NCBI GenBank assembly: GCA_013314855.1
Contig: JABUEW010000039.1
Span: forward strand, 1 to 33,103
Reading direction: 5' to 3'
DNA: 33,103 nt
From: Bacillota bacterium
GTDB taxonomy: Bacteria; Bacillota; Clostridia; Acetivibrionales; DUMC01
Below, one piece after another: positions 11,951 through 27,002 of the stretch (the stretch's first letter is position 1; every line of letters starts with the position of its first letter). The position numbers were made by a program, and so were the translations under genes. The notes under the pieces are model-generated. The model was not told where the DNA came from. It worked only from the letters and a program-made list of their open reading frames with translations, and made no database searches.

Positions 11951-13300
11951 CTATTGTCCATTTGATGCCAGGAAATAAATTGTGTCTAACTCTATTTTTT
12001 TTGAAACATTTATAACATCTTCTATTGAAACCCTTTTTATTTTGTCTGCCAATGTTTGAAAGTTGTCATTTGTAGTTGCAAGTATTTGACTAAAATAATA
12101 ATCGGTTATTTTTAACTGATTATCTTTAAGGAAGCCTATACCTGTTTCAATTGACTTTATAGCTGATTCATGTTCATACTGGGTAATATTGCCTGATTTT
12201 ATACTATCAATCTGTTTTAATATAATATCAACAGCTCTATTTCTATCTTTAATCTCTATCCCACAGGTAATCAACAATAAACCTTTGAATTTCTCCAATT
12301 GTGAAAATATATAATAAGCGAGACCCGCTTCCTCTCTTACTTTCTGAAACAACTTTGAATACACTCCTCCCCCCAATATGCTGTCGAAAACTATAAGAGG
12401 ATAATAATCCTTTTCTGTCGGTAATACATTCGTTCTAAAACCCAAAGACAATTTAGCCTGGTTAACAGCCATGTGCTCTGTTACTTGCTTTACTTCCTCT
12501 ACTTTATTACTTTCAGCAAGGAAATATTCTCCGTTATATTTATTATTATTATTATTATCTTTTTCCCCATTGTGCCGTATTTTTAAAAGGTTTTGCTTTA
12601 TCCATTCCAGTTTTTCTATTGGAACATCTCCAGTTACAAATACCTTTAACGGGTAATTGTCAATAATATTTTTATAATGTTCATATAGGCTGCTTTCTGA
12701 TACTTCTTTCAACCCTGATATATCTCCATAATCATAAATTCCAAAAGGCTCATCTTTACACATTTCTTCAAAGCATCTTTCTATTGCATATTGTACCTTG
12801 TCGTTCACTCTTCTTTCAATGAGCCTTTTAAGACTTTCCTTTTCCTGTACAACATATTCCCTTTTGAAAATACCATTTTCAATTACCGGACTAGTAATAA
12901 TATCGACTATCAATTCAAAAGGTTTTTTAAAAAAATCTTTCATATCGGCCACATATTTTTCAGCGATACATTCGGTATGAAAATATATTACGTGGTATTC
13001 CCCTTTTTTAGCCACGCCACAATCAAAAGATCCCCCATAGAGTTCTTCCAGCCGTAAAGATATGTCAGACATGGTGGGGTAACTTTTGCAGCCCCGCCTT
13101 AAAACAGCAGGTACTAACGCATTTTTTGAAACAGTATCTTTAGAAAGAGTATCAATAAAGAAAAAACTAATAGTAATCGTTTTAAACTTTCTAACAGGTA
13201 TATAATACACTTCTATATTATTAAAAGAACAAAGCCTTTCAGCATTTTCTTCCTTGAGTATATCTTCCGCAACAAGTATATCTGCCACCAAACCATTCAC
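11951..13300 (-). CDS. M16 family peptidase-like subunit without zinc motif (YmfF-like)
   Basis: 449 residues with the M16 fold. ALVPAVLRRGCKSYP stands where HxxEH would be, so it cannot bind zinc in the canonical way. The C-terminal half keeps features of the second domain (LGFRTNVLPTEKDYYPLIVFDSILGGG...SKLFQKVREEAGLAYYIFS). This is the expected non-catalytic partner of the next gene. The start is unsure: the first in-frame candidate is GTG at 13298-13300 with AAGGA only 2 nt away, while TTG at 13289-13291 or GTG at 13286-13288 have better spacing. No ATG exists near the N-terminus. A 78-nt AT-rich gap without an obvious hairpin separates it from ribF. Confidence 0.85.
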   Translation of the reverse strand: MNGLVADILVAEDILKEENAERLCSFNNIEVYYIPVRKFKTITISFFFIDTLSKDTVSKNALVPAVLRRGCKSYPTMSDISLRLEELYGGSFDCGVAKKGEYHVIYFHTECIAEKYVADMKDFFKKPFELIVDIITSPVIENGIFKREYVVQEKESLKRLIERRVNDKVQYAIERCFEEMCKDEPFGIYDYGDISGLKEVSESSLYEHYKNIIDNYPLKVFVTGDVPIEKLEWIKQNLLKIRHNGEKDNNNNNKYNGEYFLAESNKVEEVKQVTEHMAVNQAKLSLGFRTNVLPTEKDYYPLIVFDSILGGGVYSKLFQKVREEAGLAYYIFSQLEKFKGLLLITCGIEIKDRNRAVDIILKQIDSIKSGNITQYEHESAIKSIETGIGFLKDNQLKITDYYFSQILATTNDNFQTLADKIKRVSIEDVINVSKKIELDTIYFLASNGQ

Positions 13301-13378
13301 TTCCTTGATTTTACAGGTTATGCTAGTCTATGTATGTGTTATTAATATTTCCATATTGAAAGAAAATATAATCATACT

Positions 13379-14299
13379 TTAATAATACTTTGCCTTCAAG
13401 ACATCGGATTTAATCTGGCGGACAAGTTCCTCCCTATTGTTGAATTTTTTTTCATTTCTAATTTTTTTAATAAAAAATACTTCAATACGTTTTTGGTATA
13501 TATCTTCATTAAAATCTAATATATAGGTCTCTACATTTACTTTAGTACTTCCGGTTTTTATTGTTGGATTTGTACCTATATTTGTGATACTTTTATATAA
13601 CTTTCCGTCCAAAAGAGTCTTTGTTATATATACTCCACAAGCAGGCAAAAGCAGATATTCTTCCGGACTAATATTTGCCGTTGGAAATCCAAGTTCACTC
13701 CCTATACGTTTTCCCGATTCCACTAAACCTGTTATTGAATAATGCCTTCCAAGAAAATAAAAGGCTTTTTCCATATCACCCCTGGCCAAATACTCCCGAA
13801 TTAGTGTGCTGCTGACAATTTCATCATTTACTTTAATTGGAGGTATTATTATAACCCGAAAATTATATTTTTCGCCCAACTCCTTAAGTAAATCGGCATT
13901 GCCTCGCCCTTTATACCCAAAAGTATAATCAAACCCTGCTACTGCAAGCTTAATGTTCAGATTACCTACTAAAACATCCTTCACAAATTCTTCCGGTTCC
14001 AGTTTGGAAAAAGGCTCATCAAAGTCTTCATAAAATAGATAGTCAAGAGGCAGATTATTTAGTATTTCAGCCTTCTTCTCCACAGTAATTAGTAAAGGAG
14101 TAACCAATTTTTTCTTTAAAATGTTATCAGGGTGTTTTGTAAATGTATAGACCATTGAATGTAAATCATGAAGTTTGCACTCATTTATTAGAACATTAAT
14201 TAAAGTTATGTGGCCAATATGAAGCCCATCAAAATTACCCAACCCAACTCCTAATGGTTTAGTAGACAATGTATTATTAATATTACTTATAACCTCCAT
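13379..14299 (-). CDS. ribF: Bifunctional riboflavin kinase / FAD synthetase
   Basis: 306 residues, the usual length. Converts riboflavin to FMN and then FAD. The N-terminal nucleotidyltransferase domain shows GNFDGLHIGH (21-30) and SSTLIREYL (163-171). The C-terminal flavokinase domain starts at about 184 (GRHYSITGLVESGKRIGSELGFPTANI), with PTAN at 206-209. AAAGGAG is 8 nt before the ATG. It follows truB by 37 nt, as in most Firmicutes. It supplies the flavins used by the flavin reductase, the FMN lipoprotein and the FrdA-like flavoprotein elsewhere in the window. Confidence 0.96.
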   Translation of the reverse strand: MEVISNINNTLSTKPLGVGLGNFDGLHIGHITLINVLINECKLHDLHSMVYTFTKHPDNILKKKLVTPLLITVEKKAEILNNLPLDYLFYEDFDEPFSKLEPEEFVKDVLVGNLNIKLAVAGFDYTFGYKGRGNADLLKELGEKYNFRVIIIPPIKVNDEIVSSTLIREYLARGDMEKAFYFLGRHYSITGLVESGKRIGSELGFPTANISPEEYLLLPACGVYITKTLLDGKLYKSITNIGTNPTIKTGSTKVNVETYILDFNEDIYQKRIEVFFIKKIRNEKKFNNREELVRQIKSDVLKAKYY

Positions 14300-14336
14300 A
14301 GGTTCTTCTCCTTTAGTGCTCCTTTATAATATTGAT

Positions 14337-15230
14337 TTATACAAACATTTTTTTAGGTTTTAAATAATACCTGCCATTTTTTATTATTACTTCACCCAAT
14401 GCAAGAAAATCATTTCTTTCATTATATACCCTTACCGGAAAACCAACATCAAAATCATTTTTATCCTTAACTATGGGTATGAAATTCCCATTTTTAAATT
14501 TCTTTTCATTCAAGCTATTTAAATAGAAACTTTTAAAATTTTTGAAAATTTCATCAACCTTTAAGAATAACTCATGCATTTTACCGTTTTTATTTGCCTG
14601 CAAGATTTCTTCCAGGGTAAAGGCAGACTCAATATGAAATATTCCTGCCCTTTTTCGTATAAGAAATGACATGTGCCCCCCACAACCTAAACTATCTCCA
14701 ATATCAGAGCACAGTGTCCTTATATATGTACCCTTTGAACAGGTTACATCAAAAAGCACCTTATTTTTCTCTATATTAATAAGGTTTATTGAATAAATCT
14801 CAACTTTTCTTGGCTTCCGTTCTATACTTTTTCCTCCTCTTGCAATCTCGTAAAGCCTTCTGCCTTCTACTCTGACGGCAGAGTACATAGGAGGTGTCTG
14901 GTATATTTTTCCAATAAAACTCTTCAAGGCTTGAGTTATTTGCTGCTCAGATACTAGAACCTTTTTTACAGCAATAACGTTCCCTGAAGAATCCTGTGTA
15001 TCTGTCGAAATACCTAAAGTAAGCTCAGCTCTATACACCTTTTCCATATTCATTATATACTCAATAACTTTAGTAGCTCTACCCGTACATATCGGTAAAA
15101 CACCGGCAGCACCCGGATCAAGTGTACCGGTATGGCCAATTTTCTTTTCTTTTAATATACCCCTCAAGTATGCAACCACATCAAAAGATGTCATACCTGG
15201 AGGTTTTAAAACATTCAGTAAACCGTTTAT
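14337..15230 (-). CDS. truB: tRNA pseudouridine(55) synthase, apparently started at AUA
   Basis: Makes pseudouridine 55 in the T-loop of tRNAs. The catalytic Asp lies in HTGTLDPGAAGVLP (about residue 38), and a PUA domain closes the C-terminus (GFPVRVYN...LKPKKMFV). The first ATG in frame (15192-15194) falls inside the conserved N-terminal motif LLNVLKPPGMTSFDVV and would delete its first half. The frame continues upstream through NGLLNVLKPPG to an ATA at 15228-15230, exactly where family members have their initiator Met, with GGGGG 7 nt before it. Between there and the upstream in-frame stop there is no ATG, GTG or TTG; the only other near-cognate is CTG at 15216-15218, which is poorly spaced. 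The full length from ATA is 297 residues. The start is therefore inferred to be AUA, or the base is a mutation or sequence error. Confidence 0.9.
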   Translation of the reverse strand: MNGLLNVLKPPGMTSFDVVAYLRGILKEKKIGHTGTLDPGAAGVLPICTGRATKVIEYIMNMEKVYRAELTLGISTDTQDSSGNVIAVKKVLVSEQQITQALKSFIGKIYQTPPMYSAVRVEGRRLYEIARGGKSIERKPRKVEIYSINLINIEKNKVLFDVTCSKGTYIRTLCSDIGDSLGCGGHMSFLIRKRAGIFHIESAFTLEEILQANKNGKMHELFLKVDEIFKNFKSFYLNSLNEKKFKNGNFIPIVKDKNDFDVGFPVRVYNERNDFLALGEVIIKNGRYYLKPKKMFV

Positions 15231-15252
15231 ATTAAAACCCCCATTCTTCCTT

Positions 15253-15437
15253 TTATCACGCTTTTCATATTAACTTACATGACCTCCGGTCACAAATATC
15301 AATGAAAAGCGTCAGAAGCGAGCAGTGCTAGGAAAACGAGGCGCAAAAACCGGAGCATATGTGGGTATATGTGAGGATTTTTGCGCCCGAAGTTTGACAA
15401 CGCAATGCGACGCTTATCACGCTTTTCATATTAACTT
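15253..15437. repeat. 24-bp direct repeats bracketing the nrnA-truB spacer
   Basis: Identical 24-nt copies lie at 15253-15276 and 15414-15437, 137 nt apart. The right copy contains the nrnA stop codon (15431-15433), so the left copy duplicates the nrnA 3' end and just beyond. The pattern looks like an insertion that duplicated its target, or a recombination by-product of the palindromic element between them. Confidence 0.8.
15302..15429. repeat. Palindromic intergenic element (about 128 bp, MITE- or REP-like)
   Basis: The ends are perfect 11-bp inverted repeats, ATGAAAAGCGT (15302-15312) and ACGCTTTTCAT (15419-15429). A second copy of AGCGTC/GACGCT lies just inside. The core is a long hairpin: GGCGCAAAAACC (15340-15351) against GGATTTTTGCGCC (15375-15387), with a further CATATG...ATATG pairing at the top. 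There is no room for a transposase. It is more GC-rich than its surroundings. It resembles from memory the dispersed GGCGCAAAAATCC-type hairpin elements of many clostridial genomes. As RNA in the nrnA-truB transcript it would fold strongly and could affect processing or translation of truB. Confidence 0.75.
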
Positions 15438-16411
15438 TTCAGGGCATCTACTATACTTACCAATATCTTTTCTTTTACATCATGTAAATTACCTTTTATC
15501 GTACAACCGGCAGCTTTTTTATGGCCGCCGCCGGCAAAACTTCCGGCAATAATTGAAACATCTATATCCGAATTTGACCTTAAACTAACTTTTACTTCTT
15601 CTTTCTTCTCCCTGAATAAAACAGCAATTTCCACCCCATGTATATTTCTTCCAAGATTAACAATACCTTCGCATTCTTCATCCCGTGCTCCGGTCTCTTG
15701 CATCATTTTTTCTGTTACGGTAATAAAGGCTATCCGCCCATCCTCTAAAAGTTCCAATGAACTTATTGCAGCCCCAATTAATTTTACTTTCTCTATTGAG
15801 ATTGAATCAAATACCTTTGCAGATATTTCAGTCACATTTATACCGTTATTTAATAAATCTGAAGCTACTAAATGAGTTATATATGTAGTATTGGCAAATC
15901 TAAAACCACCGGTATCGGTTATTATGGCAACATAGAGGCATGTTGAAATATCCGCATCTAGGACTAGTCCCATCATATTTATCAATTGGTATATTATTTC
16001 TCCTGCAGCTGAAGAATTGGAACAAACATAATTAAAATCGGCAAAGTGGGTATTTGTTGGGTGGTGATCAATATTTATAGTAAATTTTACACTTTTAAAT
16101 AATGAAGCTCTATTTCCCAATCTTTCAATATCTCCTGTATCTATAGCAACAACCGTATCAGGCACTTCAATACTATCTGGGAAAACTGCCACCATTTCCT
16201 GTCCCGGAAGAAAACTGTACATTTGTGGCATATCTTCTTCAAGATATACCATTACATTGCTATTTATCCGGCTTAATGCCAGGGCCAGAGCCAACCCTGA
16301 CCCCAACGCATCGCCATCAGCTTGAATATGAGGAAGTACGACAATACTTTTTGACTTCCTTAAAACATCAATTATTTCATCCATTTTTTCATTTAATAAC
16401 GTACTTTTCAT
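15431..16411 (-). CDS. nrnA: DHH/DHHA1 phosphoesterase NrnA (nanoRNase / pAp phosphatase)
   Basis: 326 residues, the usual NrnA size. It degrades 2-5-nt RNAs and dephosphorylates 3'-phosphoadenosine 5'-phosphate using Mn2+. Metal-site motifs in order: HIQADGDALGS (28-38), DTGD (91-94), DHH (115-117) and ITDTGGFR (164-171). The DHHA1 substrate domain ends with the GGGHKKAAGC motif. It starts 11 nt after rbfA; AAAGGGGAT lies about 16 nt upstream, a little far, and an in-frame ATG at 16384 is an alternative. Its stop codon lies inside a 24-bp direct repeat. Order rbfA-nrnA-truB-ribF is standard in Firmicutes. Confidence 0.94.
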   Translation of the reverse strand: MKSTLLNEKMDEIIDVLRKSKSIVVLPHIQADGDALGSGLALALALSRINSNVMVYLEEDMPQMYSFLPGQEMVAVFPDSIEVPDTVVAIDTGDIERLGNRASLFKSVKFTINIDHHPTNTHFADFNYVCSNSSAAGEIIYQLINMMGLVLDADISTCLYVAIITDTGGFRFANTTYITHLVASDLLNNGINVTEISAKVFDSISIEKVKLIGAAISSLELLEDGRIAFITVTEKMMQETGARDEECEGIVNLGRNIHGVEIAVLFREKKEEVKVSLRSNSDIDVSIIAGSFAGGGHKKAAGCTIKGNLHDVKEKILVSIVDALKS

Positions 16412-16422
16412 TCTGCTTGTTT

Positions 16423-16770
16423 CTAATCCCCTTTTATTGTATCATTAATCAGTTTGTTAATATAAATTCCCTGCTCAATAGAGTTGTCAAGTTCAAATAT
16501 TAATTCGGGAGTATACCTTAGTTTAATTCTATGTCCGATCTCTCTTCTAATAAACCCGGCGGCATTTTTGAGTCCCTCTATAGCATTTTTCTTATCTTCT
16601 TCATTTCCTAATACACTTATATATACCCTGGCATATCTTAAATCCCGTGTAGTATCAACCGATACCACACTAACAAATTCAGGCAGCCGCGGGTCTTTTA
16701 GTTCATTTTGTATAATACTGCTAATCTCCCGCTTTATTTCTTCAGATATCCTGTATATTCTTTGAGTCAT
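16423..16770 (-). CDS. rbfA: Ribosome-binding factor A
   Basis: 115 residues, the normal length. A KH-like 30S maturation factor acting on the 5' end of 16S rRNA, important in the cold. It has the family start (R-I-x-x-E-I-x-R-E-I-S-x-I-I) and the [33 protein letters not shown] core, followed by [32 protein letters not shown] is about 10 nt upstream of the ATG. It lies 20 nt after infB in the nus operon. Confidence 0.96.
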
Positions 16771-16790
16771 CAGTAAATCACTCCCTAAGC

Positions 16791-19700
16791 CTATTCTTGT
16801 ACTTCCTCCATTATATAAGCCTCAATAATATCTCCTTCTTTAATGTCATTAAACTTATCTATAAGTATTCCACATTCATATCCTTGTGAAACTTCTCTTA
16901 CATCATCCTTGAATCTCTTTAATGACGCAAGTTTTCCCTCGTAAACTACAATACCATCCCTTAAAACACGTATACCGGAATTTCTGGTAATTTTTCCATC
17001 AAGTACATAACTTCCACCTATAGTGCCTATCCCTGATGCTTTAAATAGTTGCCTTACTTCAGCATGCCCCTGAATTACTTCTTCCAGTTTAGGTTCCAAC
17101 ATACCCTTCATTGCAGCTTGTATATCTTCAATAACATCATAGATAATTCTGTATAATCTTATATCTACATTTGAATTTTTAGCAATTTCTGATACATTGG
17201 GTCCAGGCCTTACATTAAAACCGATAATAATAGCATTGGATACATCCGCAAGTTTTACGTCAGTCTCAGTAATACCGCCTACTCCATCATGTATTATATT
17301 AATCTTGACTTCATCATTGCTAAGTTTTTCAATAGACTGTTTTAAAGCCTCAACAGAACCCTGGACATCAGCTTTAATTATCATGTTAAGTTCCTTTACC
17401 TTGCCCTCCTGAATTTGGCTAAATAAATCATCAAGGGAAACTTTAGAGGCCGATTTCTTCATCTGCTCTTCCCTGTATTTTTCTTTTCTTTTTTCTATTA
17501 AGCTTTTCGCAAGTTTTTCGTCTTTTATTGCATAAAATATTTCCCCACTTTCAGGTACTTCAGGAAAGCCCAAGACTTCAACAGGAGTTGAAGGTCCTGC
17601 ATATTTAATACTTTGCCCTTTATCATCATTCATAGCTCTTATCCTGCTCAAAATTGTACCTGATATAATTGTATCACCTACATTCAGTGTTCCTCTCTGC
17701 ACCAATAATGTAACAACAGGTCCCCTGTTCTTATCAAGTTTAGACTCTATTATGGTACCTTTTGCCTGCTTTTTCGGATTTGCCTTGAGTTCAAGCAAGT
17801 CTGCAGTCAATAATACCATTTCAAGGAGCAAATCAATATTCTCACGTTTCAAAGCGGAAACAGGTACAACAACTACATCGCCTCCCCATTCTTCAGGTAC
17901 AAGGCCATGTTCCGTTAGCTGTTGCTTTACCCTTTCCGGGTTTGCTCCAGGCTTATCAATCTTATTTATTGCTACAATTATAGTTACATTGGCTGCTTTT
18001 GCATGATTAATGGCTTCTATTGTCTGGGGCATTATACCGTCATCCGCTGCCACTACAAGTATAGCTATATCCGTTACCTGTGCTCCTCTGGCTCTCAGAG
18101 CAGTAAATGCTTCGTGGCCTGGAGTATCAAGGAAAGTGATATTCCTGTTATTTATATTCACAGTATAAGCACCTATATGTTGTGTTATGCCTCCCTCTTC
18201 ACTTTCAATAACGTTCGTTTTCCTAATTGCATCAAGAAGAGATGTCTTCCCATGGTCTACATGCCCCATTACCACAACCACAGGTGGCCTCGGTCTCAAA
18301 TCTTCCTCATTATCTTCTTCATCATCAAACAAAATGTCCTCTTCATTAACAACAACTTCTTTTTCTGCTTTAATTCCAAATTCATCAGCTATTATTGCCG
18401 CAGTATCATAATCTATCTCCTGGTTTACGGTAACCATAATGCCCATACTTATTAACTTCTTAATAACATCTGCAGCACTTTTCTTCAAGATCTCCGCCAG
18501 ATCTTTTACAGTAATTTTTTCAGGTATCTCAACCATTTTCAACACAGGCTTTGGTGCAGTAACGGAAACATTAATATTATTTTTCTTATCTTTATTTTTG
18601 TCCTCGGTTTTGCGTTTAATAGGCTTTATTGCCTTTTTAGTTTTATGGTCATCATAAAATTCATCAATCAGAATATCTTCTGTTATCAGTTCAGAAATAT
18701 TTCTCTTTCCATCAACTATAATTTCATGCGTTTTAAATTTCTTTTTCCTGCTTACTGAGGTCTGTATTTTAGGCAGTTCTCTTTTTTGTTCCCGTTTTTT
18801 ATCTTTATCAAAATCTTTATTTCGATAGTCAAAATGCTTTATCTCTTCATACTCTATATCAATATCAGGCTCAGGAATTTCGAGAAATTGAGGCTTCTTT
18901 CCCTCCTGTTTATAAGTTTTAGGGCTTGTATATCCTGTACCTTGTCCTTTATTTTTGTTGTTTTTGTTTCCATCTTTCTTTATTTGATCTTGTACAGAAG
19001 ACTTTAATTTGTCATCCTCGGACTTATCAAAATTGGCTTCATATTTCTCTCTACTTTTCTTATCTTTACCCATAGTTTTCATTTCTTCTCCGGCCACAAC
19101 TTTACTTTTTTCACCCTTAAAACCGCTTTTCTCTTGTTGATCTTTGTGTTTTTCTTTTCCATCTTTTAACTCTTTCTGTGCCTCTTTAATTTGTCCTTTT
19201 ATTTTTGTATCGTCTTTGACAGGTTCCTGAACTGATTCTTTGGTTTCTTTTTCATCATTAATATGATTAATAATATTAATCTCCTTAATGTTTTTATTAA
19301 TGCTTTTATCCTCAATTTTGTCCTGGATTTTGTCCTGTACTTTTTTCTCTGTCTCATCTTGAATCTTATCCTGGTCCTTATCCTGTATTTTATCCTGTAT
19401 TTTATCCTGTGCTTTATCCTGTGCCTTATCTATTTTTGCCGGCTTATCTTTCTTTTTTATTACAGGACCTGTATCTCTTACAAAACCTGCCCTTAATCCT
19501 GACCCTGCTATATTTACCTTTATACCACCATACCTTCTTCCCCCCTTGAATTCACCTTTATTACGCCCATGATGATTCTCATCTTTACGGATACCGCTTT
19601 CCTTATACCTATCATTAATTTTTTCATCAACAACAATTTCGGTCGTCCTTATTATCCTTGGTGCACTTTTTGAGTCTTTTGCTTCAGGCTTCTTTTGATC

Positions 19701-22378: not shown

Positions 22379-23794
22379 TTACTTTTGTGAAGATGAAGAA
22401 CATACAAATGAATAAAGCATTGCATTCTTAAGATAGAATTTCAACTTTATAGTCTTTCCTTTAAGTTCCGTAAGAGAAACCTTATCTCTCCATGTTACCC
22501 TGTGGTGTATTGAATTTCCGTCAAACAGGGCACATTCCACTCTTTTATACCCTGTAAAATAATTTCCAAAATGGTGCCCATCCTCATCAAGCACAGACAC
22601 CGCAATATAGCCGCCTTTTGCATCTGCATTTATAAACAATTCGTCACCCTTGCATATAAAAGGTTTCGTTACAATATAACCTTCTTCCTCTCCAGCGTCC
22701 AATGAAACAAATCCGCTTTTTCTCAATTTCGCAAGGCATATATAACCTCCGCGTTGTGCAATAATGCCTCCCTGCTTTTTTAAATCATTGGGACGTTTTC
22801 CGTTTATATCCTCAGTAATTCCATGATCCACCAGATATCCACCATAGTAAAACCACAATTCATCTTCCATGTCAACTGGGGCTCTTGCGCAGTATATCAT
22901 TTTACTATCGACACTTCCAGGAGGTCCATTGGGTATAAATACCTTTCTGTCACAAGCCCTGTTCCAATTATACCCATCTCTACTATATGCCAGCTGGATA
23001 TTCATTGTTCCTGCCATCCTAGGATTGGGTTCTTCCTCGTATGTGTGGTATACAGAAGGAAGACCGATATATATATCCCCGTACTTAAAAACAGGCATGC
23101 CGTAAAATTCAAGATTCGGCGGATCTTTTTCATCAGGCTCAAGCACATAAACAGGTTCGCTCCAGTGAATAAAGTCTTCACTCTCTAATCTGGTAACAAC
23201 CCGTATTCTTCTCCCATCGCTTGCCTGCCTGGGTTTGCTATAAACAACATATTTCCCGCAGCTCTCATCCCAACCTGCAAGCATATGGACATCACCTGTA
23301 TTTTCAATTACAGGATTGCCTTCATATTTGCTCCAATTAATACCATCCGGGGAAAAGGCAACAGACATAGAAGGGTTGTGCTGTTCCCAAAAAAGGGCTT
23401 TATAACGCCTGTCCGGGTTTGTCTCCCTTTCGTCCTTCATAACGTTTACGGGAGATATGTCTATCAAGAATATGTTATTATCTTTACTACCTTCATATTC
23501 AATAAGACCAAGGTTTGGCCTTTCCCAAAAAATGCCATCTCTCGAAGTAGCGTAACATCCCGTGTATGGCGTTCCCCCGTATCCCTGATACCACATTTTA
23601 TATATTCCCTCATCTTTTAATACCGTTCCGAAAAGGTTCACTGAATGTCCTTCCCATCTTGCAACAGGTCTCATTATAGGATTACCAACGTATTTTATAG
23701 GCTGGTGAAGAGTGCGTTGAATATTTACCTTTTGCTCAATTAGGTAATCATCAATAAAAATAACTTCCCTCCCTGAAATATCTAATGCCCCCAT
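22379..23794 (-). CDS. Beta-propeller glycoside-hydrolase-like protein A
   Basis: 471 residues with no signal peptide, so probably cytoplasmic. Four copies of a blade motif, S-x-D-(G)-x-x-W, recur: ATSRDGIFWERP, FSPDGINWSKY, ESEDFIHWSEP and AYSRDGYNWNRA. KYVGNPIMRP and GNPVI phrases also recur. Together these indicate a five-bladed propeller like GH32, GH43 and GH130-type enzymes. The last ~110 residues look like a beta-sandwich. Catalytic acids cannot be assigned. Perfect AAGGAGGT lies 6 nt before the ATG. It is a diverged paralogue of the next upstream gene (shared GNPxxRP start, AGTMxxQLAYSRDG, FIPxGxPGxxD, AKLRxxGFVxLxA, KNAxLYS). It is the last gene of the importer operon, with its stop 62 nt from the -35 of the nus promoter. 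Family name unknown to me. Confidence 0.75.
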   Translation of the reverse strand: MGALDISGREVIFIDDYLIEQKVNIQRTLHQPIKYVGNPIMRPVARWEGHSVNLFGTVLKDEGIYKMWYQGYGGTPYTGCYATSRDGIFWERPNLGLIEYEGSKDNNIFLIDISPVNVMKDERETNPDRRYKALFWEQHNPSMSVAFSPDGINWSKYEGNPVIENTGDVHMLAGWDESCGKYVVYSKPRQASDGRRIRVVTRLESEDFIHWSEPVYVLEPDEKDPPNLEFYGMPVFKYGDIYIGLPSVYHTYEEEPNPRMAGTMNIQLAYSRDGYNWNRACDRKVFIPNGPPGSVDSKMIYCARAPVDMEDELWFYYGGYLVDHGITEDINGKRPNDLKKQGGIIAQRGGYICLAKLRKSGFVSLDAGEEEGYIVTKPFICKGDELFINADAKGGYIAVSVLDEDGHHFGNYFTGYKRVECALFDGNSIHHRVTWRDKVSLTELKGKTIKLKFYLKNAMLYSFVCSSSSQK

Positions 23795-23862
23795 CAGGTT
23801 ACCTCCTTGATTATATTCCTTAATTATATTTCTTGCTTATCATATTTTTACAAATTATTTCA

Positions 23863-25317
23863 TTATTCTTCTATGTCATACTTTGGATTAAGACAGCTTA
23901 TCTCCTTGAACTGCCAATACCTGGCTGGATCCTCTCCGTTGGGGAATAAAACAGAGTAAAGTCTGGCATTCTTTGCCCTCACTTTAAGCCGGATAACCTG
24001 TCCAGTAATCTTTTCAAGGTCAGATGTTCCATTCCAGCATACCTTATGTGCCATACAATCACCCGTAAAAGGCTCACAATTATCGAAGGCAAATCCCTCT
24101 ATAGCTTCTCCTTTCGTATCACATACTTCCACCTTTACATAGCCTCCGCATGCTGCAGCATTGAGATATATATCTCCCTCTGTCACCATGAAAGGCCGGG
24201 TCATAAGCTCGCATACTTCCTCACGGGCTTCCAGTTCCACAAAACCGTCTGGTCTTAGTTTTGCCATCCCGATACACTCCTTTGATATTTCACTGTAAGG
24301 AATCCTTATAGGACCGGAATGATCAAAGGAAGATCCCGAAAAGTAGAAGTATATCCCATCCGGCCTATATATAGCTGTAGAGGAGGGAATGAGGCACTGT
24401 GCATCCCAGTCGCCAGGCCCCCCAAAAGGTATAAATTTTTGCCCCTGGAAGCATCTGTGCCATCCAAAGCCGTCACGGCTGTAGGCAAGTTGTACATCCA
24501 TGGTACCAGCCATTTTATTGTAATTAGGGTCTACCTTGTAGTCGAATGTATTGTACACGGATATCCATCCCATGATATATGAACCATACGGAGTCATTTG
24601 CATGCCATAAAACTGTGTGCCGCAGGGGTCTCCCTGTCCGGGTTCTATAGCCAGTACCGGCCTAGTCCAGTTTATCAGGTCAAGGCTCTCACTAACCCAT
24701 ACACGCCTGTCGGGTACCCTTGTCCTGAAAGAAACTCTGTAATGACCTGTAACAGGATCACGGTAAAAGCCTACATGGCAATCGCTGTGTACATCTATAA
24801 CCGCTTTTCCGTCATTGAAAGGTTTCCAGTGTATACCGTCTGGGGAAGTGTAAATGGTTATGCCGCATTTATTAACGTAAGGAGCCATGGCCAGTTTGAA
24901 TCTCCTTTCAGGATCGGGATCCATGTCATCTATTATAACAGTAGGGCCATGAGTACCCTTATCATTGTCCATTACTATGTTTGTACCCTCCACTACATCC
25001 AGCTTAGGTTTTATCCAGTTTATGCCGTCCTTGGAAAAAGCATAATTAAGGTATGCATATGCCTTATCTTTATCTGCTTCACTTATGCCTGGCTCATAGT
25101 AATGAGTAGAATACCAGGTCTTGAAAAGCCTATCATTAATATCGAACAGAGCCGTGCCATAATAATGTACCCTCTTGAACTCATGTGGAAGTTCTGGTCT
25201 TATAACAGGGTTGCCCTCATATTTTTTAGGTTGACCAAGTCGGCTATTGAAGCCATTTATATACTCATAACACCTATTGTCCAAGAAAAGAAACTTTATT
25301 GCCTTACTCTTACTCAT
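23863..25317 (-). CDS. Beta-propeller glycoside-hydrolase-like protein B
   Basis: 484 residues from the ATG at 25315-25317, chosen because AAAGGAG precedes it; an ATG 7 codons earlier overlaps the stop of the flavoprotein gene. Blade motifs FSKDGINWIKP, TSPDGIHWKPF, SESLDLINWTRP and AYSRDGFGWHRC mark a five-bladed propeller. A C-terminal sandwich-like domain shares YxNAxAxGGYVxVxVxDxxG and KNARLYS with paralogue A. No signal peptide, so a cytoplasmic enzyme is likely, acting on material brought in by the adjacent ABC importer. It starts 17 nt after the flavoprotein gene. The pair probably arose by tandem duplication and then specialised, since blade interiors differ strongly. Confidence 0.75.
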   Translation of the reverse strand: MSKSKAIKFLFLDNRCYEYINGFNSRLGQPKKYEGNPVIRPELPHEFKRVHYYGTALFDINDRLFKTWYSTHYYEPGISEADKDKAYAYLNYAFSKDGINWIKPKLDVVEGTNIVMDNDKGTHGPTVIIDDMDPDPERRFKLAMAPYVNKCGITIYTSPDGIHWKPFNDGKAVIDVHSDCHVGFYRDPVTGHYRVSFRTRVPDRRVWVSESLDLINWTRPVLAIEPGQGDPCGTQFYGMQMTPYGSYIMGWISVYNTFDYKVDPNYNKMAGTMDVQLAYSRDGFGWHRCFQGQKFIPFGGPGDWDAQCLIPSSTAIYRPDGIYFYFSGSSFDHSGPIRIPYSEISKECIGMAKLRPDGFVELEAREEVCELMTRPFMVTEGDIYLNAAACGGYVKVEVCDTKGEAIEGFAFDNCEPFTGDCMAHKVCWNGTSDLEKITGQVIRLKVRAKNARLYSVLFPNGEDPARYWQFKEISCLNPKYDIEE

Positions 25318-25334
25318 AATTTTTTCTCCTTTCA

Positions 25335-27002
25335 TCATACCAATTCAAAACGTAATCCATTCCCACTATTCTTAGAAACAGCAATTCTCTTTCCAAAACA
25401 CTTGTTGTTGATTACAGGGTAATCATCTCTGTAATGTGAGCCCCTGCTCTCTTTCCTTATTAACATGGCTTCCAGTAAAATGCGTGAAAATCGAAGGCAA
25501 TGATGTGCCTTTACAGCATCCCTCAGGTTGGTACCGTATTCAAATGTCTTTAGCGCATTATAATTTAACTTCATATCTTCAAGTTTCTTTATGCCCTCTA
25601 GTAACCGTTCCTCGCTGCGAACAATGTTGCCATGGAACCATAGAATTTCCCCTATAGCATCAACTACCTCTCCTGGGGGTATTGAGCCTTCACCTGTGTC
25701 TAAGGTATCAGCAAGAATCCTTGCAGTTCTTTCAAGTTCTGCTTTAGGAGCTGGTCGTGAAGATGCGTACTTAACTGCTGAAACAGCTGCACGTTTACCG
25801 AATACAAGGCAGCTTCCCGAAGCATTACCTCCAAGTCGATCAGCACCATGTATTCCGCCTGCTGCTTCTCCAGCGGCGAAAAGGCCTTCTACAGTAGTAC
25901 AACAATTCTCATCAATCCATATACCGCCATTACTGGCATGCCCAAAGGGAGCAATAACTATTTTATCGCGTACAAGGTCAATGTCTTTTGTCTTTAACCA
26001 GTTAAGATAGTTTTGTAAGGCATCATTTTCAACTGAATATATAGATGGTGAATAAATTAATCTAAATCCTTCTTCACCTTTATCAGCTAATATTTCCTTC
26101 ATCATTGCTATATCGAAATATTTTGATGCATCAGCACACGTGAAAGGACCATGCCCTCCACGAAGGTCAAGGCATTCACGTTTTTGCACATCTTTAGGTA
26201 AATATTTGGACAGCACGTCCTCGCCCTGTGAATTCTCAACACCATCGCAGTAGTAAAGTGTCTGTTCACTAAATAGTGCCTTGTATACAGGCTTGAACAT
26301 ACCTGGAATGAACTGGTTGAACTCAAGGTTTATAAGCTTTGCCCCTACCTCAAAAGCGATGGCGTGTCCCAAACCGGATACATCATCGGTATTGAGGCTG
26401 TGCTTGTAGAGCCCGCAAAAGCCACCGGTAGCAAGGATGACAGACTTTGCATTGATCACTATCAGCTTCCTATCACTACCTGCAGCCACCGCGCCTTCCA
26501 CCCTGCCATCAACTTCAAGCAGTTGGATTATATCCGAATGTTCCATGAGCTGAAGATTGGTCAAGGAATCAAAAAGCCTACGTACATTAGACCGTATGGC
26601 TTCCCAGTCTCTCCATATAAACAAATCTCTGGCTCTCTTTGCAAAACAAGCTGTCCTACCTTTCAGCTTGCGGTACGATATTACAATTTCCGGCAGTTCT
26701 TTAACTCTATCCCTTATCTCGTCTACATATATTTCACATAATCTATGATCATTCATACCATAACTGGATTCATCAATTTCTTGTAAAAAGAGTTCTTTGT
26801 CTTCGTCACTAGATGGTGCCTGACAGCCAAGCCCACTTGTCAACGGATAAAAGCTAGAACCCGAACATATCTCACCTTTTACTGTTACAAGTACCTTTAC
26901 ACCCATCCTTGCACATTCAATGGCAGCCTTTATTGCTGCCAGCCCACCACCTACAACTAGTACATCGGTATCTATTACCGTATCAAACCTTATTATACTC
27001 AT
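25335..27002 (-). CDS. FAD-dependent oxidoreductase of the FrdA/NadB flavoprotein family
   Basis: 555 residues. The FAD-binding Rossmann start is VLVVGGGLAAIKAA (14-27) and an ATGG segment lies at 191-194. The C-terminal flavin site reads GHASNGGIWID (354-364), GLFAAGEAAGGIHGADRLGGNASG (373-396), typical of fumarate reductase, succinate dehydrogenase and aspartate oxidase. His355 and Arg389 correspond to conserved substrate residues. However, the QFHPT motif that carries another active-site His is QFIPG here (230-234), and the PRD loop is replaced by LRGGHGP. A dicarboxylate-specific fumarate reductase is thus unlikely. No FrdB- or heme-type partner adjoins. AAGGAGG is 9-10 nt before the ATG. 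Its place between the importer and two propeller enzymes suggests redox modification of the imported compound. Confidence 0.8.
   Translation of the reverse strand: MSIIRFDTVIDTDVLVVGGGLAAIKAAIECARMGVKVLVTVKGEICSGSSFYPLTSGLGCQAPSSDEDKELFLQEIDESSYGMNDHRLCEIYVDEIRDRVKELPEIVISYRKLKGRTACFAKRARDLFIWRDWEAIRSNVRRLFDSLTNLQLMEHSDIIQLLEVDGRVEGAVAAGSDRKLIVINAKSVILATGGFCGLYKHSLNTDDVSGLGHAIAFEVGAKLINLEFNQFIPGMFKPVYKALFSEQTLYYCDGVENSQGEDVLSKYLPKDVQKRECLDLRGGHGPFTCADASKYFDIAMMKEILADKGEEGFRLIYSPSIYSVENDALQNYLNWLKTKDIDLVRDKIVIAPFGHASNGGIWIDENCCTTVEGLFAAGEAAGGIHGADRLGGNASGSCLVFGKRAAVSAVKYASSRPAPKAELERTARILADTLDTGEGSIPPGEVVDAIGEILWFHGNIVRSEERLLEGIKKLEDMKLNYNALKTFEYGTNLRDAVKAHHCLRFSRILLEAMLIRKESRGSHYRDDYPVINNKCFGKRIAVSKNSGNGLRFELV

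Follow-up and report, generated by a model that had tools for sequence, protein, structure and literature searches.

A putative AUA start codon behind a strong Shine-Dalgarno sequence in truB of a clostridial draft genome

The infC gene of Bacillus subtilis is known to start at AUU, as does infC of Escherichia coli, and infC is autoregulated through IF3. For truB, which encodes the tRNA pseudouridine-55 synthase, a universal tRNA-modifying enzyme, we know of no feedback through IF3. In Staphylococcus aureus, infC, ccpN and citZ start at AUA and cvfC1 at AUU, with an extended Shine-Dalgarno sequence (SD) predicted for infC, cvfC1 and ccpN (PMC13009471). There the AUA starts were observed by ribosome profiling, with reporters as a second line of evidence for ccpN and citZ; AUA reporters yield about 10% of AUG, the ccpN reporter up to 30% in rich medium, and the AUA start of ccpN is conserved to B. 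subtilis (PMC13009471). In vitro, IF3 excludes weak third-base pairs, which counts against efficient AUA initiation (PMC10158994). The truB gene described here most likely joins this known kind of weak start behind an extended SD. Judging from the sequence, its translation from AUA at 15230–15228 with a low output of TruB is fairly probable; the likelihoods given in words for this explanation and its rivals are judgements and were not computed. Among the literature matches listed, none refers by title to a non-canonical truB start, titles alone being too little to establish absence.

The window is the whole stretch of DNA analysed, 33,103 nt, and corresponds to one contig (C39; JABUEW010000039.1) of the draft genome of a Bacillota bacterium (4.43 Mb, 252 contigs, 96.58% complete, 3.29% estimated contamination). 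The closest named matches are clostridial sequences, a Clostridiaceae MAG at 57% identity followed by Lachnospiraceae. The truB product matches NCBIfam TIGR00431 with 249.1 bits (cut-off 151.45) over profile positions 1–209 of 210, and in the same profile comparison the Cbf5 models stay under their own cut-offs. The single PF01509 match in the genome is truB, which is thus the only TruB copy. The gene lies between a DHH-family gene, which we take from its motifs and position to be nrnA, and a ribF-like gene, presumably within the usual rimP-nusA-infB-rbfA neighbourhood. Elsewhere in the window, two adjoining ORFs at 22379–25338 (471 and 491 aa) are alike by eye and are possible paralogues. The features of the truB locus are collected in Table 1.

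Table 1. Features of the truB locus, in window coordinates
Feature	Position	Strand	Remarks
truB (tRNA pseudouridine-55 synthase)	14337..15230	(-)	297 aa if read from ATA; TIGR00431 match
ATA, proposed truB start codon	15228..15230	(-)	position occupied by Met in 71/80 parsed truB loci
Shine-Dalgarno AAGAAUGGGGGU of truB	15237..15248	(-)	complementary to 16S 3′ tail; one U.U mismatch, one G.U pair
First in-frame ATG of truB, internal (in KPPG-MTS)	15192..15194	(-)	without SD
Predicted RNA hairpin, UGGGGGUUUUAA paired with UUAAAACCUCCA (part of V-L-K-P-P codons)	15198..15243	(-)	folds of 15180-15290 and of start region
Out-of-frame 13-codon upstream ORF MKSVIKGRMGVLI	15227..15268	(-)	read from sequence; SD 13 nt away
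nrnA-like DHH-family gene, upstream of truB	15431..16411	(-)	ORF; stop 200 nt before truB AUA
Intergenic repeat, ~170 nt	15253..15437	(-)	bounded by 24-nt direct repeat, copies 15437-15414 and 15276-15253

On the minus strand the in-frame TAA upstream of truB is followed by TAT GAA AAG CGT GAT AAA AGG AAG AAT GGG GGT TTT AAT and then by ATA AAC GGT TTA CTG AAT GTT TTA AAA CCT CCA GGT ATG, the last of these being the internal ATG at 15194. No ATG, GTG or TTG is read in the truB frame from the upstream TAA to this ATG, which confirms the claim of the sequence-only reading that the conserved N-terminus and the stop preceding it have no such codon between them. Its placing of ATA at the expected Met position, 7 nt after a GGGGG, also holds, the G run occupying 15242–15238 and the codon 15230–15228. 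The further claim that the conserved TruB N-terminus is encoded in frame upstream of the first ATG is borne out by the TIGR00431 match, which runs from ATA. A chance reading of this N-terminus was rejected, as the profile match begins at the ATA codon and the aligned residues are conserved. A start at the internal ATG would lose the first 12 positions of the profile, and the shortened protein scores 235.7 bits, above the cut-off. Two other candidates for the truB start were set aside, the in-frame CTG at 15218 (without SD, duplex −1.1 kcal/mol) and the internal ATG itself (likewise without SD, duplex +0.6 kcal/mol).

The 16S 3′ tail TGGATCACCTCCTTTCT was located in the same genome, and AAGAAUGGGGGUU against GAUCACCUCCUUUCU gives a duplex of −12.8 kcal/mol with 6 nt from the duplex end to AUA. 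This SD is the strongest of the 80 truB rows compared (median of the 79 relative rows, −6.6 kcal/mol), and −12.8 kcal/mol is matched by 0.42% of 5000 random minus-strand positions. With the first ATG, GTG or TTG of each ORF taken, uncurated, as the gene start, 3 of the 26 other starts in the window are better and one ties. The extended-SD motif GGGNGT (PMC13009471) is found at truB as well and is weak evidence by itself, because 7.6% of random positions have this motif or one of its sister motifs, as do 11/80 truB rows and 7/27 genes of the window.

The strength and spacing of the SD would suit an ATG misread as ATA equally well, which counts against the AUA reading. A wrong base in the assembly, or a minority or strain variant, would mean that the cells have ATG at 15230–15228; the fragmented draft with its contamination estimate and the prevalence of ATG at this position among relatives fit such an error. 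It is nevertheless considered unlikely, since single-base consensus errors are generally rare and this one would have struck exactly this codon, in the very truB row whose SD is strongest. A different reading would be one base missing from the G run, through an assembly error, a real indel or slippage during expression; translation would then begin at ATG 15244 or ATG 15268 and give TruB an N-terminal extension ending ...GGFNINGLLN. In its favour, the ATG GGG at 15244 is a single base out of frame, two loci (L027 and L029) have extended N-termini in which Ile occupies this place, and the alignment of E. coli TruB in 1k8w begins at chain residue 24. Neither of these upstream ATGs, however, has an SD at normal spacing (−6.2 kcal/mol at 3 nt only for 15244, −10.7 kcal/mol at 13 nt for 15268), and the sequence is not visibly indel-prone, because the neighbouring genes are long uninterrupted ORFs. 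This reading is likewise considered unlikely.

The start codon was compared in 81 truB loci, comprising the window, 58 loci of further genomes and 22 from a contig search, with a weak match on a Flavobacteriales contig (L054) and a genome without a match (G059) excluded from the count. The script parsed 80 of these; in the remaining locus (L109) the start region reads MNGILNVLKPPSMTS, with Met at the expected position. Two rows (L010 and L032) represent one place, leaving 78 distinct relatives behind the 79 relative rows. At the expected Met position the 80 rows display ATG (64), GTG (4), TTG (3), ATA (2), ATC (2), AAA (2), CCA (1), CCC (1) and AGA (1). Eight relatives have another codon there and a canonical start farther upstream. 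All 79 other rows possess an in-frame ATG, GTG or TTG at the expected position or upstream, and the window is the sole parsed locus without a canonical start. The second ATA row (L093) reads ATG ATA AAC GGA, with ATG directly before ATA, showing that Ile before N-G is tolerated. ATA is not conserved, ATG being present in one other genome of the genus (G001) and one more of the family (G002). The earlier proposal of an AUA start stands as the best-supported reading, through the SD, the intact protein, the probable AUU start of infC and the S. aureus cases. Conservation of the codon is supportive of an AUA start and not defining, because ccpN and infC show it and citZ does not.

The open frame of truB, 310 codons, is intact, and all 72 columns invariant in 29 relatives are retained (72/72), among them the motif GHTGTLDP, which is taken to contain the catalytic Asp. 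Unique changes were fewer in the window than in G001 with six of 7 outgroups (window/G001: 19/37, 18/38, 15/31, 12/35, 21/31 and 21/29) and equal with the seventh (25/25). Over codons 1–10 the two genes differ by four synonymous codons and one other. The sequence speaks for constraint on the TruB protein until recently, because the invariant columns are kept and there is no excess of changes relative to G001. This bears on the view that truB was recently damaged, with full-length protein scarce or absent and a shortened form perhaps starting at ATG 15194. The missing canonical start, a hairpin predicted over the SD, the lost closeness to nrnA and the shortened form scoring over the TIGR00431 cut-off would all fit such damage, and a very recent loss would look alike. 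Nonetheless, the intact frame and motifs show no other damage, the unique changes never exceed those of G001, and ATG 15194 lacks an SD and as a start would cost the protein 12 conserved profile positions, leaving recent damage quite unlikely.

In the predicted fold (−25.7 kcal/mol, z −2.39, 6/200 shuffles as good) 12 pairs join the SD to UUAAAACCUCCA of the conserved codons, and AUA lies in the inner stem. The start-region fold of −17.5 ranks 5/80 among truB rows and leads the 27 window genes, the second-best of which has −10.3; 4.6% of random positions reach it. When the rows are ordered by how the SD pairs with sequence downstream of it, the window ranks 3/80. The predicted burial of the SD and AUA in the hairpin counts against the AUA reading. 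With the hairpin, the truB start is probably weak twice over.

The space between nrnA and truB is occupied by the repeat. In 55/76 loci truB lies no more than 8 nt from the upstream stop (median 2), against 200 nt in the window and 168 nt in G001; four more loci exceed 100 nt. This count covers 76 of the 80 parsed loci (L040, L045, L048 and L053 are missing), the upstream gene was found by motif only, and the 555 nt of L044 are doubtful. A related repeat fills this space in both genomes of the genus, and the G001 junction (L003) contains, in addition, a second partial copy directly before the truB ATG. The repeat would account for the lost coupling of truB with its upstream gene. Direct derivation of ATA from the repeat was rejected, as the repeat copy stops short at 15253 and G001 has both repeat and ATG. 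In view of the ATG in G001, the presence of the repeat is not enough to explain ATA, and the earlier suggestion that a mutation came with the insertion next to it is unsupported as a direct cause. As RNA the repeat folds at −60.1 kcal/mol (z −6.34, 0/200 shuffles as good). No Rfam match was returned in 13000–17000 at E up to 1, and a simple scan of 15100–15600 found no terminator between nrnA and truB. In the source genome the repeat gives 11 BLAST matches at 9 places. This palindromic intergenic repeat is also present on contigs C73, C133, C94, C61, C13, C5, C63 and C118, and copies precede genes whose starts resemble, by eye, dnaK (C61), clpC (C133) and, on C118, a nifS-like gene. The copy on C13 (L060/L062) is split by ~110 nt of other GC-rich sequence. 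The core pattern of the repeat occurs in 6/58 genomes of the order.

The upstream ORF spans the 5′ arm of the hairpin and its TAA overlaps AUA by 4 nt (AUAA). Its interpretation as a displaced nrnA tail was dropped, nrnA looking complete by eye up to the repeat. Ribosomes translating this ORF might unfold the hairpin, terminate at UAA and begin again at the AUA that overlaps it, which would replace the lost coupling to nrnA. In such a scheme the repeat broke the close nrnA-truB arrangement, the leader ORF begun in the repeat opens the SD/AUA hairpin and TruB is made only from leader-translating ribosomes; truB would then be run by a self-contained switch. The 4-nt overlap is a usual coupling distance, and in E. 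coli the last 15 nt of an upstream gene were enough for reinitiation (PMC10666635). The crossing of the hairpin arm and the wide spacing of truB in the window, set against the close spacing in most loci, are further points in its favour. However, coupling through the leader is possible but unproven because the SD of the upstream ATG is 13 nt away; moreover, the 13 codons are without a coding signal and the stop-start overlap is possibly chance. This scheme is regarded as highly improbable.

Initiation at AUA finds a probable parallel in infC of the same clade. Ten infC matches were obtained, of which 8 loci from 7 genomes, including the source genome, were fetched. In 8/8 of these, GGAGGTG lies 8–9 nt before an in-frame ATT (−13.2 to −14.7 kcal/mol), which corresponds to the AUU start of B. 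subtilis infC. The next candidate lies 6–7 codons past ATT; it is ATG in 7/8 loci and CCG in the other one, and its duplexes range from +0.4 to −5.8 kcal/mol. The infC of the source genome (contig C10, L083) probably starts at AUU behind an SD similar to that of truB; this is only probable because an ATG 6 codons after ATT has a duplex of −5.0 kcal/mol. Since infC thus probably starts at AUU, the organism is probably able to use AUH codons behind strong SDs. As in infC of E. coli and B. subtilis, and probably of this clade, a non-canonical AUH start in truB would combine with a strong SD. In contrast to the truB ATA, the infC ATT is conserved in all loci fetched. With S. aureus infC, ccpN and citZ (PMC13009471), the truB locus would share the AUA start, a Gram-positive 16S tail, GGGNGT and an SD that is long or, as predicted in S. 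aureus for infC and ccpN, extended, whereas it represents one gene in one genome, read from sequence, and its ATA is not shared by the same-genus genome. The AUA of citZ in the S. aureus NCTC 8325 lineage is similar in being a lineage-restricted AUA of a housekeeping gene, although the gene is another one and its restriction is at strain level (PMC13009471).

At an AUA start of truB, the initiator tRNA would pair with AUA despite the third-position mismatch and the strong SD would keep the ribosome at this codon. The yield would be well under that of AUG, so that little TruB would be made; by analogy with the S. aureus AUA reporters, truB would be throttled by its start codon. The simplest origin of ATA, as suggested by the relatives, would be one G-to-A change in an ancestral ATG. 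Routine gene callers miss or misplace starts other than ATG, GTG or TTG, and here they would clip TruB by 12 residues of its first conserved motif. If real, truB would be a natural case of AUA initiation in a housekeeping gene for tRNA modification beyond the staphylococci and bacilli, and the strong SD beside AUA would accord with the view that such codons become usable through a long SD.
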